A DNA stretch of 64,000 nt from an uncultured Gemmatimonadales bacterium (lineage in GTDB: Bacteria > Gemmatimonadota > Gemmatimonadetes > JACCXV01 > JAHWKZ01). Location of the stretch: assembly GCA_947259315.1 (NCBI GenBank), contig CAMYLR010000019.1, positions 74,033 to 138,032 on the forward strand. Reading direction: 5' to 3'. Shown here in pieces: positions 46,632-50,949 of this stretch. The notes below the pieces were generated by a model. That model saw nothing but the letters and a program-made list of their open reading frames with translations, did no database searches and was not told where the DNA came from. Numbering within the stretch: position 1 is the stretch's first letter; each line of letters starts with the position of its first letter. The translations under genes and the position numbers were made by a program.

Positions 46632-48091
46632 GCGTCAGTTTGCAGTCGATCGAGCTCTCGTCGCCGCTTAATTCGACGATGCAACGACGCACCCAGATCG
46701 TCCCAAACAGCAGCCCGGTTGGTTCGATCGACGCCCCCACGCAACCGCTCTTCCAAGGTCGCACCAAACGCGCTGCCACCGGGCTGCCCCTGGGCATCGT
46801 GGACGTCAAGCAACACCGTGCCGCCGCCGGGACCGTCGTTGTAAATCCGCAGCGAGGCGACGTCGAGCGCGTCGTTCATAAACACGATCGCGGCTCCAAT
46901 CTGTTCGAACGGACGCCGCGAATCGATCGTCCACCCACCGGTGTTAAAAACCTTCACCTTGCGCTCGACACCCTTCGGGGACACGATGCTCTCGAACGGT
47001 TTATGGGTATGGCCAAACACGACTGTCAGGTCCTCGGGAACGTGCCCGATCGCCTCCTCCAACTGTCGGAATGACGGCCCAAACACGTACTTCTGTAGTC
47101 CCTTCATCGTGCTCTTGGAGTACGGTCCGTCGCGAACGAATCGCTCAGTGACGAACCGCCCAGCATACCAGTCGAGACTCTTCTTGATCACCATGCGTTC
47201 GAGCCGTTCCGACGGCAGTAATGGAAGGTCGAGTGCCTTAGCCATGCGCGCTGCAAGCTCGCTGGCGCGAGCCCGAACGTGGTCGGGATTTCGAAGCGTC
47301 AGGAACAAAGCCTCGAAGTCCCGGCCGGCTGCGCCCGAGCGCCCCAGCAACGACCAGACGAAATCGACCCATGCGTAGTTCTCGTTCTCGATCTCCTCGA
47401 CCGTCGCTGGTTCCGGACGTCCAGGAAAGAGCGCACGTCGCGCGATGCTGAAGAACCGGTAGACGTCTTCGGCATAATGTCCGTGGTGAATCAGCACGCA
47501 CCGATCGCTCGACTCTCGCACCAGTGCCAGATTCGGGTAGATCACCTCGACGCTCGTGACCGGCTTCTCTCCGCCACCGATTCGAGTGGCCAGACTATTC
47601 AACAAGTCCGACGGCAATCCCGCACTGAGCAGTGGGGACGTGACATGCGACGATGGCGGAAGAGCGCGTTGTTTGTCGCTGTCCCCGACCTGGCGCGCGT
47701 AGCCGGCTTCGCGTGCGAGCTCCCAGATGTGATGATCGTGATTGCCGGGGATGTACACGATCGAGTCACACAGCTCGGCGCCAGGTTTGAACAGGCTTTC
47801 CATGAGGAAGCCAAATAGCGTAAGCGTCTCCTGGTAGGACCCGAAGGCGAGCCCGAGCCCGTCGCCCGCTACGATCAGCGTCGGGAGCTGATCACCTTCG
47901 TTTTGTTCTACGAGGTGCCGCAAACACGTAGCCAACCGCTCCAACATGGGTGCGGCGGTGGGCACGCCGTTCCCGGCACCTGGTGGTTTGAGGGGTGTCA
48001 GGACGCTCTCCTGCTCCCCCAGATGGAGGTCCGAAAGGCACACGTAGCGAATGTCGTGGCCTGGGGCTGGCACTACTCGTGCTGTCGACAA
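46628..48091 (-). CDS. Calcineurin-like metallophosphatase with an altered metal motif
   Basis: 487 residues from the TTG at 48091; a GTG at 48073 overlaps the VOC stop as TAGTG and could equally be used. Metal motifs are DLHLGE, AGDGLGLAFGS, PGNHDHHIWELA, IHHGHYAEDVY and VFGHTHKPFE. In most relatives the second motif is GDxxD; here the last Asp is Gly (GDGLG), so the second metal site may be weakened. The chain after about residue 180 is longer than in simple family members. Substrate is unknown. No signal peptide is seen. Confidence 0.85.
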   Translation of the reverse strand: MSTARVVPAPGHDIRYVCLSDLHLGEQESVLTPLKPPGAGNGVPTAAPMLERLATCLRHLVEQNEGDQLPTLIVAGDGLGLAFGSYQETLTLFGFLMESLFKPGAELCDSIVYIPGNHDHHIWELAREAGYARQVGDSDKQRALPPSSHVTSPLLSAGLPSDLLNSLATRIGGGEKPVTSVEVIYPNLALVRESSDRCVLIHHGHYAEDVYRFFSIARRALFPGRPEPATVEEIENENYAWVDFVWSLLGRSGAAGRDFEALFLTLRNPDHVRARASELAARMAKALDLPLLPSERLERMVIKKSLDWYAGRFVTERFVRDGPYSKSTMKGLQKYVFGPSFRQLEEAIGHVPEDLTVVFGHTHKPFESIVSPKGVERKVKVFNTGGWTIDSRRPFEQIGAAIVFMNDALDVASLRIYNDGPGGGTVLLDVHDAQGQPGGSAFGATLEERLRGGVDRTNRAAVWDDLGASLHRRIKRRRELDRLQTDA

Positions 48092-48444
48092 ACGGCTTCT
48101 ACGTTATTGCCGTCGGGATCCAGAACGAACGCGCCATAGTAGTCGGGAGAATACATCTCGCGAATCCCGGGCGGGCCGTTGTCCTCGCCACCGGCCGCGA
48201 TCGCGGCCGCGTAGAACGCGTCTACAAGTTCCCGATTCGGACAACCAAAGGCGACGTGGACTCTCGTGTGAAGCGGCTCGCGCTGAACGACCCAGAAGTC
48301 GGGCTTCCCCGTCTCCTTGTGCCCAAACCCGGCAGCCACGAGAAACTCTTTCACAACCTCGTACCCGAGCGGGGCTAAGGCCCGCTCGTAGAACAATCGA
48401 CTTCGAGCCAGGTCAGTTACGTTCAGAGTTACATGATCGATCAT
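48073..48444 (-). CDS. VOC-superfamily (glyoxalase-like) protein
   Basis: 123 residues from the ATG at 48444 (MIDHVTLNV), one base after the upstream stop. The paired beta-alpha-beta-beta-beta pattern is visible: IDHVTLNVTDLARSRLFYER at the start and DYYGAFVLDPDGNNVEAVC at the end, with metal-ligand candidates His4 and Glu near the C-terminus. Members include glyoxalase, dioxygenases and antibiotic-binding proteins. Substrate is unknown. Confidence 0.9.
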   Translation of the reverse strand: MIDHVTLNVTDLARSRLFYERALAPLGYEVVKEFLVAAGFGHKETGKPDFWVVQREPLHTRVHVAFGCPNRELVDAFYAAAIAAGGEDNGPPGIREMYSPDYYGAFVLDPDGNNVEAVCRQHE

Positions 48445-48445
48445 C

Positions 48446-48790
48446 TCACTGCTCCGTGGTGTGGGACCAGACAAACCCTTCTTGTTCAGGATCGTAGATC
48501 CAGATCTTGTGCCAAGGTTCGCCTCGTGCCTCGCCGCCTAGCACTCGAAGGTCCGGGTGACCGTCCCCGTCGACATCAGTCAACTCAGTAGCGCCTGGTT
48601 CCGACGGATTGATGCTGTTGCGAACCTCGATGATCTGAACGACGGCCCGGTCTTCCTTCCGAATCACATCGAGCTCGTAATTCATGTCTTGCTGGTGGCG
48701 CACCTGGATCTCGTGACTTGGCTGATTCACGCCGTCGGTACAATCGATGGCTAACAGAACCGCGCATATCGTCAACGCCTGCCTATTCAT
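48446..48790 (-). CDS. Small exported protein with a VCBS-like Asp loop
   Basis: 114 residues from the ATG at 48790, which overlaps the stop of the AhpD-like selenoprotein gene (ATGA). An N-terminal hydrophobic segment with a Cys (VLLAIDC) could be a poor lipobox. The later region TDVDGDGHPDLRVLGG is the Asp/Gly loop of XAC2610-type or FG-GAP proteins and may bind calcium. The start WHKIWIYDPEQEGFVW is also consistent with that small family. The call is tentative. Confidence 0.7.
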   Translation of the reverse strand: MNRQALTICAVLLAIDCTDGVNQPSHEIQVRHQQDMNYELDVIRKEDRAVVQIIEVRNSINPSEPGATELTDVDGDGHPDLRVLGGEARGEPWHKIWIYDPEQEGFVWSHTTEQ

Positions 48791-49383
48791 CCCGTTTCCT
48801 TTGGCGTGCCACCCCACGTAGGAATAAACGTCTCCGCCTCGACGCCCAACGCGTCGGCGATGCGGCTGATGTAGTTGAAGTAACCGATCACTTGGACCGC
48901 GTCGTGTATCGCATCATCACCAAGTCCGTGCTCCCGCAGCGCATCCAGGTCCGCGGGTGCCATATCGTGTTGCTGGTGGGTCAGCTTGGTCGCGAACACA
49001 CAAAGCTCGCGATCAACTTCTGACAACCGAGCTGAGCGCCAATCTCTCGCTACCGCATGCACGTAGGCATCGGCCTCATCTCCCGCCGTGAACTGATCCG
49101 CGATCTCTTCCCGGAGATCGTTGGCATGGGCTTGCGTTCAATAGTGACAGTCGAGCTCGGAGGAAACAACGGTCGCCAAGAGCTCTCGCTGTGCGCGCGT
49201 TAGCGGCGACCGGCCGCGCATTATGTCGATGTACAACCGCATGCTCGACTCCAGTACGCGCGGGTTGAGGCTCATGATGTGAACGATGTTCCACACCCGA
49301 CCGGCACGACGGATGGCGGCATCGAAATGCTCGCGCAGCCGACCGGTAGCGTGGTCGATCGGAACTTGGTGAATCCAAGGCAT
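48787..49383 (-). CDS. AhpD-like carboxymuconolactone-decarboxylase-fold selenoprotein (CHYU)
   Basis: Read through the TGA at 49138-49140, the frame gives 198 residues from the ATG at 49383 to the TGA at 48787. Residues 1-81 and 83-198 together match one AhpD/peroxidase-related protein: WIHQVPIDHATGRLREHFDA, IVHIMSLNPRVLESSMRLY, SPLTRAQRELLATVVSSELD, then C79-H-Y-U82, and later LREHGLGDDAIHDAVQVIGY and FNYISRIADALGV. The TGA is where the second redox Cys of CxxC belongs, and the conserved His four residues on is kept (H86). A SECIS-like hairpin follows. A plain stop would remove over half of the fold, yet codon periodicity and motifs continue. Such proteins reduce peroxides or act as thiol-disulfide partners. 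A C-to-U replacement is the best reading; a base error cannot be excluded. Confidence 0.85.
49101..49120 (-). promoter_or_regulatory. SECIS-like hairpin just after the in-frame TGA
   Basis: On the minus strand CGATCTC pairs perfectly with GAGATCG around a six-base loop CGGGAA. The stem begins 17 nt, and the loop 24 nt, after the TGA. Bacterial SECIS elements need a loop some 16-37 nt after UGA with G among its first bases, and this fits both. Confidence 0.7.
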
Positions 49384-49392
49384 GCCTGTTCT

Positions 49393-50949
49393 CTACTTTC
49401 GCGGGTCGATCGGTGTCAACACACCGAGCTCGTTCTCGATCGCCTCGGCGGCGTCCAAACACAAGTCCTCCCGATAGAGCGGGCCGATCACCTGAACGGC
49501 CTGCGGTAGCCCGTTAGCGAGTCCCACTGGCACGGCGGCCGCCGGAAGCCCGAGCAAGTTCGCGGTCACGACAAGCCGCATCGAGCGAAGTAATAACAAA
49601 ACGGCGTCCGTTCCCCTCAGATCAGCACCGACGGCGAACGGTTGCTGGGTGGAAACGGGACCCAGAACCAACGGATACTCCTGCGCGAAGTGCGTCCACT
49701 GGCGCGCGATCCCGTTTCGATCCGCTAACGCGCGCATGTAGCCGCGCAAGCTCAACTCGGGCACCACCGAGAAAAAGTCGTCCAGCATCCTGTACGAATC
49801 CCGAGCCAAGAGTTCTTGCACCGCGGGTACGAAATCGGTACTCAGCTCGGCTGCCACCAAGCGAGCCCAGAGAGCAGCCGCTTCATCGACCGCCGGCAGA
49901 TCCACCTCCTCGACCGCATAGCCAGCGTTCGACAACACGTCGGCCGCCTTTCGCACACCATCGGCGATGTCCGGATCGGTTCCCTGTCCACCCGGATCCG
50001 TCGTCACCGCCACTCTGATCGGACCACCCACGGACGGTCCCTCGAGCGGGGCCGGGACCCACCAGGGATCCCGTGGGTCTGGCCCGCTCATCGCGGCAAG
50101 AGCGACCCGTAGATCGCGAACGTGGCGTGCCATCGGCCCGTTGGTCGCAAACAGCTGAATGGTGATCGAAAACTCGGCCGGCGCCATCGCTGACCTGTCG
50201 GGAACGCGCCCCCGCGTAGGCCGAATCGAGCACACCCCGCAACATTGAGCTGGGTAGCGAAGCGAGCCGCCGTAGTCGTTTCCGACACCCAGCGGGGTCA
50301 TTCCCAACGCCAGAGCGACGGCCTCACCGCCACTCGATCCGCCAGGAGTCCGCGTGCGGACCCACGGGTTCGCCGTCGCCCCACGCAGCGAGCTCTTGGT
50401 ATGCCACCGCAACGCGAAGTCAGGCATATTCGTGCGCGCCAGCGGGATCGCGCCGGCGGCCTTGAGCTGGGCGACGAGCGGCGCGTCAACCGGCGGAATT
50501 TCTCCTTCAAGTCCAAGAACACCCATCGTCGTCGCCGACCCCGCGACATCGATGTTCTCCTTGATCGTGAACGGAACACCGTGCAACGGACCGATCTCTT
50601 TCCCGAAGTCGATGGCCCGGTCCGCTTCTTCTGCGGCTCGCATCGCTGGTTCCTCGAGCACCACCGTAATCGCGTTTACCGCCGAATTGACCTTCTCGAT
50701 CCGCTCCAGGTGGGACTCTACAACAGCTCGGCTGGTGATCCGGCGATCGCGGATCGCAGCCGCCAATTCGGATGCCGACATTACCCACGGCTCATCGCCC
50801 ATCGTCGGCGTGGGTTGTGGAACTCGAGCAGATTGCGTTGTAGTCGCCCACAGCTCATCCAACCGCAAATCGGGGATGAGCGCCGCGGTCGATGATGCGA
50901 GCCCGTAACCGAGCAGCGCACGACGGGAGATCGGACCCTTGATATCCAT
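49393..50949 (-). CDS. Tat-exported amidase-signature family amidase
   Basis: 518 residues. The N-terminus has a Tat-like signal ([18 protein letters not shown]). The Ser-cisSer-Lys triad is complete: Lys in PFTIKENID, Ser in [16 protein letters not shown] and Ser in [12 protein letters not shown]. The family hydrolyses amides, from amino-acid amides to peptides and xenobiotics, here probably in the periplasm. Substrate is unknown. The stop is 10 bp before the ATG of the selenoprotein gene, so they may be co-transcribed. Confidence 0.92.

Follow-up and report, generated by a model that had tools for sequence, protein, structure and literature searches.

An AhpD-Like Gene with an In-Frame UGA in a Gemmatimonadales Genome: A Predicted CxxU Selenoprotein with Relatives in Two SECIS Registers

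We analyzed a stretch of 64,000 nucleotides from an uncultured Gemmatimonadales bacterium (henceforth the window), in which a gene on the minus strand is interrupted by an in-frame TGA. With a probability that we put at about 0.93, this gene encodes an AhpD-like (COG2128/TIGR01926) selenoprotein in which a SECIS element directs Sec to the UGA and in which C79 and Sec form a C79-x-x-U82 redox pair. The features on which this reading is based, and the neighboring genes, are as follows, all on the minus strand:

48787..49383 (-), predicted AhpD-like selenoprotein gene; ATG 49383-49381, terminator TGA 48789-48787; 198 residues, Sec at 82
49138..49140 (-), in-frame UGA, predicted Sec codon U82, second position of the CxxC; TGA in all orthologs found
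49147..49149 (-), codon of Cys79, the presumed resolving thiol, at the first position of CHYU; invariant in the family alignment
49183..49185 (-), codon of Glu67, proton-relay Glu 12 residues before Cys79; invariant in the alignment (relay, PMC3141380)
49126..49128 (-), codon of His86, proton-relay His four residues past U82; invariant in the alignment (PMC3141380)
49101..49120 (-), predicted SECIS hairpin CGATCTC-CGGGAA-GAGATCG; stem kept in 93/97 orthologs
49393..50949 (-), amidase gene, 518 aa, PF01425; stop 9 nt upstream of the AhpD ATG
48446..48790 (-), gene of a small putative secreted protein, 114 aa; start overlaps the AhpD stop by ATGA
48073..48444 (-), gene of a glyoxalase/VOC-fold protein of 123 aa, counted from its ATG; follows in the presumed operon

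The Split Reading Frame and Its Neighbors

On the minus strand, an 81-aa ORF (49383-49138) closes at the TGA at 49140-49138, and past this internal TGA the same frame contains no further stop until the TGA at 48789-48787, giving a protein of 198 residues. A preliminary description of this DNA had joined two frames of the same phase, split only by the TGA, into one 198-residue protein of the AhpD fold, and our analysis confirms this for the minus strand. It had also placed the TGA at the second Cys of a CHYC motif with the His four residues later retained; with the TGA read as Sec, the motif is indeed CHYU (C79-H80-Y81-U82), and His86 lies four residues beyond U82. A mechanical ORF caller splits the gene and lists the pieces, the 81-aa ORF and a 91-aa ORF starting from GTG 49062, as separate ORFs, as would be expected if the UGA were a true stop and two genes were present, the first encoding a protein that ends at Tyr81. 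However, such a boundary would cut inside the catalytic helix (H80-93 in the structural model), leaving the first protein without its second redox residue and relay His, and the stretch between the UGA and the GTG is conserved as coding sequence (HANDLREE) and bears the conserved hairpin; we therefore regard two separate genes as extremely improbable.

The amidase gene and the AhpD-like gene are likely on the same transcript, and co-transcription of the AhpD-like gene probably includes the downstream gene of the small secreted protein as well, which is likely translationally coupled to it. The order amidase-AhpD-small protein-VOC is kept only within the genus (L003/L079). When ORFs within about 6 kb were clustered, no conserved neighbor was found in more than 12 of 81 loci and, for that reason, we do not infer a functional partner; frequent neighbors within local groups are ThyX, an aldehyde dehydrogenase, and a radical-SAM protein.

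Orthologs and the Sec Machinery

Every ortholog that we collected has a TGA at the site (118 loci representing 97 distinct DNAs from at least five phyla). TGA orthologs were identified in Gemmatimonadota, Chloroflexota, Actinomycetota, Planctomycetota, and Krumholzibacteriota (phylum names follow the records), and their identity to the window protein ranges from 86% in the same genus down to about 54%. None of the 118 orthologous loci encodes Cys at position 82; because the script that read the site accepted TGC and TGT besides TGA, this absence is not a filter effect. Likewise, in 41 related genomes and a 395-genome sample of the phylum, every site-spanning match of ~50% identity or more has the in-frame TGA, and in a scan of 85,000 species genomes a TGA is present in all of the best 80 of 182 relatives. 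Cys forms are found only farther out, in a clade adjoining the paralogous group with 37-39% identity, and the Sec/Cys label changes once on the tree. Inspection of close homologs for Cys or Sec had been proposed as a check in the preliminary description, and its outcome is that all have TGA and none has Cys. From this distribution, Sec appears to have been kept rather than exchanged in the subgroup.

These comparisons also bear on the reading of the gene as a pseudogene, in which the TGA is a nonsense mutation or a sequencing error in a decaying Cys gene. An in-frame stop in a single sequence is what such a reading has in its favor, and there is nothing else; against it, the TGA is found at the identical position in the congener and in all other orthologs from several phyla, the frame is without another stop, and synonymous constraint downstream is strong. 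The orthologs thus refute the pseudogene, to which we assign a negligible probability. A sequencing error at the TGA, named earlier as a finding that would overturn the selenoprotein, is excluded because the same-genus ortholog (86% identical) and the orthologs of other phyla all have TGA. On the whole of the evidence, the product of the gene is almost certainly a selenoprotein.

Three orthologous loci have structural peculiarities. L176 (G010:C1:140292-142099) is broken by an insert of about 1.2 kb that encodes, on the opposite strand, an IS110-like (MTEHTVGIDISKAWLDAY...) transposase-like protein; the selenoprotein gene is thus disrupted in a genome that otherwise decodes Sec. In L022 (G019:C5:62699-63361), about 30 residues, acidic and rich in Gly, are inserted right past the SECIS region. 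L177 (G143:C5:37869-38439) has an apparent frameshift just past the Sec codon, with query residues 1-87 in one frame and 83-191 in another, which could be an assembly error.

The genome that harbors the gene (2.40 Mb, 96% complete, the window belonging to its contig 19) encodes SelA (472 bits), SelB (372 bits, full length of the model), and SelD (366 bits), the gene of the last itself having an in-frame TGA, at CAGU; its tRNA-Sec (75 bits) is called tRNA-SeC with anticodon tca (UCA) by ARAGORN. All four components for which the preliminary description had suggested a search, selA, selB, selD, and selC, are thus present. The same genome contains a second CMD/AhpD-family gene with TGA at the CxxU (L002, G000:C31:85203-85739, CHYU, 45% identical) and a third gene of the family with TGA at the second Cys (L165/L078, G000:C3:48014-48337, PF02627, CPFU). 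The CPFU gene, which scores below the TIGR01926 cut-off and has a GCTGC-CGGGA-GCAGC hairpin after its TGA, probably encodes another selenoprotein.

Among the 41 related genomes, 26 encode a TGA-bearing member of the family, and selA was identified in all 26 of these; selA is absent from six relatives, none of which has a TGA-AhpD gene (Fisher P about 0.001). Two of these six (G004 and G005) are incomplete assemblies with a tRNA-Sec, and the other four have neither selA nor a tRNA-Sec. G039 (L180, L191) has selA and a TGA ortholog, but a search of its assembly, a single contig that is 93% complete, turned up no tRNA-Sec, which points to either missing sequence or an unusual tRNA-Sec. Rfam matches to tRNA-Sec below the cut-off were seen in five relatives; those in G039 turned out to be tRNA-Ser, tRNA-Leu, and others, and such matches were rejected.

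In other systems, Cys is known to be inserted at UGA when Se is limiting. This is a precedent for reading the UGA as another residue, whether it is reassigned or decoded as Cys, Trp, or another amino acid, for example as Cys on tRNA-Sec when Se is scarce. We nevertheless consider such decoding very unlikely here, given that TGA (48789-48787) terminates the same gene, that selA, selB, selC, and selD are all present, and that the TGA is found only at the redox site and together with a SECIS element.

The SECIS Hairpin and Its Two Registers

The hairpin downstream of the TGA consists of a 7-bp stem (CGATCTC/GAGATCG) and the loop CGGGAA at 49113-49108; its 5' arm begins 17 nt and its loop 24 nt after the TGA. 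A perfect 7-bp stem with this loop, starting 17 nt past the TGA, had been described before, and we find it at 49120-49101. The distance of 16-37 nt to the loop and the G early in the loop that were cited at the time as marks of bacterial SECIS elements agree with the published bSECIS rules (PMC13188914), which call for a spacing of 16-37 nt, a stem of 4-16 bp, and a loop of 3-9 nt with G among its first two positions, and the spacing of 24 nt, the loop CGGGAA, and the stem of 7 bp of the window hairpin fall within these rules. At the gathering threshold, Rfam has no match within the 64-kb window. As evidence on its own, the hairpin is weaker than had been assumed: when the protein is recoded synonymously, 19% of the resulting sequences contain a stem of at least 7 bp that meets SECIS-like rules (P = 0.19), and the free energy is unremarkable (P = 0.27). 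We therefore dropped the significance of the single sequence as an argument.

The hairpin is significant only by comparison, because the 6-bp core stem is present at a fixed register in 93 of the 97 distinct orthologous DNAs, compared with 12.0 +/- 3.4 (maximum 24) expected from 500 synonymous-recoding simulations. In the true register 98.6% of cells are paired versus 28-50% in slid registers. The segment 19-36 nt past the UGA encodes D-L-R-x-E-V/I in the 97 distinct DNAs. Leu is encoded by CTC and Glu by GAG in 97/97, compared with 34% and 66%, respectively, in the rest of these genes, and the Arg codon is CGG or CGT in 97/97 and never CGC, which accounts for 41% in the rest of the genes. This constancy is not an artifact of collection because the search patterns specified amino acids and not codons. 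Asp is encoded by GAT where Ile is present (9 of 10 sequences) and never where Val is (0 of 85; Fisher 8.5e-12, uncorrected for kinship), with the consequence that stem pair 3 stays U-A or C-G. On the tree, the Asp-codon and V/I traits undergo about six changes and nearly always change together, as seen in three well-supported independent pairs, which are too few for a sign test. Judging from these patterns of codon use, the codons that follow the UGA are under constraint at the RNA level.

In the sister clades (51 sequences, including the C31 gene of the same genome), the stem is located at 11-16/22-27 nt with the loop NGGNN at 17-21, and this stem (B) is intact in 47 of 51 sequences, with 0.9 expected from recoding. 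The loop thus starts 16 nt after the UGA, 8 nt nearer than the 24 nt of the clade of the window gene (clade A), and the difference is seen even between paralogs of one genome, the hairpin of L002 having 16 nt to the loop and that at window 49101-49120 having 24 nt. Counting at least five pairs, none of the 97 clade A sequences has the B stem and none of the 51 B sequences has the A stem. In both clades LR is encoded at equal distance from U without gaps; in clade A the Leu-Arg codons (CTC-CGK) close the 5' arm and run into the loop, and in the sister clades they form the 3' arm. A covarying change in L197, in which pair 4 goes from G-C to C-G, supports the B stem. Clade C, the sister of clade A at 85% support, has the B register, which suggests, with the direction not rooted, that the A register may be derived. 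It is quite likely, in our assessment, that the SECIS hairpin of this one orthologous coding region has two registers, each excluding the other, and that SECIS elements can relocate with the roles of the arms swapped while Sec is kept. We found no description of a SECIS register shift of this sort in the literature, of which our coverage is incomplete. A more distant AhpD-like group of the same class (L025-L027, families f5 and f7), with CVFU/CLFU at the site, has the hairpin GCCGC-GGTC-GCGGC, which is a third SECIS type in the superfamily.

Fold, Predicted Chemistry, and Relation to Known Selenoproteins

The protein scores 120.4 bits with TIGR01926 (peroxidase-related enzyme; curated cut-off 81.8, E 6.9e-35) and is above the cut-off of PF02627 (CMD); with 76 bits against a cut-off of 175 it is not a member of NF041238 (AhpD_rel_CFYUT). 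Its AlphaFold2 model (pLDDT 95.4) is all-helical and matches 2oyo, 2prr, 6k40, 2pfx, and 3c1l with Z about 25 over 180 residues. In an alignment of 49 diverse members, E67, C79, U82, and H86 are invariant and Y81 is nearly so. These five residues correspond to Glu36, Cys48, Tyr50, Cys51, and His55, which form the proton relay of PA0269 (PMC3141380), and all five relay positions are therefore retained in the window protein. A Deinococcus radiodurans mutant without the 6k40 protein is sensitive to H2O2 and is poorly complemented by CxxC mutants (PMC8945050). Because of the fold match, the retained relay residues, and the data on the D. radiodurans mutant, the protein is, by analogy, probably a selenol-based, peroxide-reducing CxxU enzyme with C79 as the resolving thiol.

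According to this proposal, the hairpin 17-37 nt past the UGA would act as a bacterial SECIS element whose CGGG loop would be bound by SelB with Sec-tRNA(Sec), and selenocysteine would be inserted at the UGA (49140-49138) to yield the 198-residue protein with its C79-x-x-U82 pair. By analogy with AhpD, the U82 selenol, activated by the E67/C79/Y81/H86 relay, would attack peroxide or a similar electrophile, C79 would resolve the selenenic acid, forming a selenenylsulfide, and the enzyme would be recycled by a thiol reductant of the cell.

Alternatively, the selenoprotein may carry out other thiol/selenol chemistry, such as reductive dehalogenation of the Bmp8 type, or act on another peroxidase as its reducing adaptor. 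The fold is similar to that of the Bmp8 debrominase (Z 18.8), M. tuberculosis AhpD is an adaptor for AhpC (PMC8945050, PMC3141380), and the search for a conserved partner gene found none, all of which would fit such a role; yet the closest solved relatives (6k40, 2oyo, 2pfx, 3c1l, and 2prr) are peroxidase-related and the complete relay is kept, so we give this alternative a fair chance but consider it less likely than a peroxide-reducing enzyme.

The gene belongs to an already catalogued AhpD-like CxxU family known since 2005. Reports of such COG2128 selenoproteins date from 2005 (27 sequences), 2006, and 2008 (299 forms with Sec and 902 with Cys), and a 2026 catalogue lists the AhpD-like family as TIGR01926, CxxU (PMC1088965, PMC2398784, PMC13188914). 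The statement in the preliminary description that AhpD-like selenoproteins have been reported from environmental surveys is thus borne out by the COG2128/TIGR01926 CxxU family of the Sargasso Sea and GOS surveys. The window protein resembles that family in its TIGR01926 score above the cut-off, the placement of the CxxU, and the SECIS after the UGA; however, whereas the survey family comes mainly from marine reads and has ~3 Cys forms per Sec form, the subgroup of the window protein is anchored in genomes and no Cys form of it was found. With DR_1765 (6k40) and the JCSG structures 2oyo, 2pfx, 2prr, and 3c1l the protein shares the whole-length fold (Z 25) and the pattern E-x11-C-x-Y-C/U-x3-H, but these proteins, at 22-33% identity, have Cys where the window protein has Sec. 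The five-residue proton relay around the CxxC is also common to M. tuberculosis AhpD and P. aeruginosa PA0269 (PMC3141380), although both are distant from the window protein (Z 11 and 17, respectively), and M. tuberculosis AhpD, unlike the window protein, has an internal repeat, its site in the C-terminal half, and His for Tyr. NF041238 AhpD_rel_CFYUT (Sargasso hypothetical protein 1) and the distant AhpD homolog NF041047 are also CxxU selenoproteins of the wider AhpD fold.

To this family our analysis adds a genome context, proof of the SECIS at the level of codons, a subgroup with Sec only, and the shift between registers. A selenoprotein family from environmental surveys is now placed in defined genomes with the full Sec machinery, and it includes a subgroup without a Cys version among the best 80 of 182 relatives from ~85,000 species genomes scanned. 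The two SECIS registers constitute a natural experiment on a coding-region RNA signal that moves under protein constraint, and the tested loop pattern for SelB in these phyla (CGKG.. / NGGNN) could improve the annotation of selenoproteins in uncultured bacteria.
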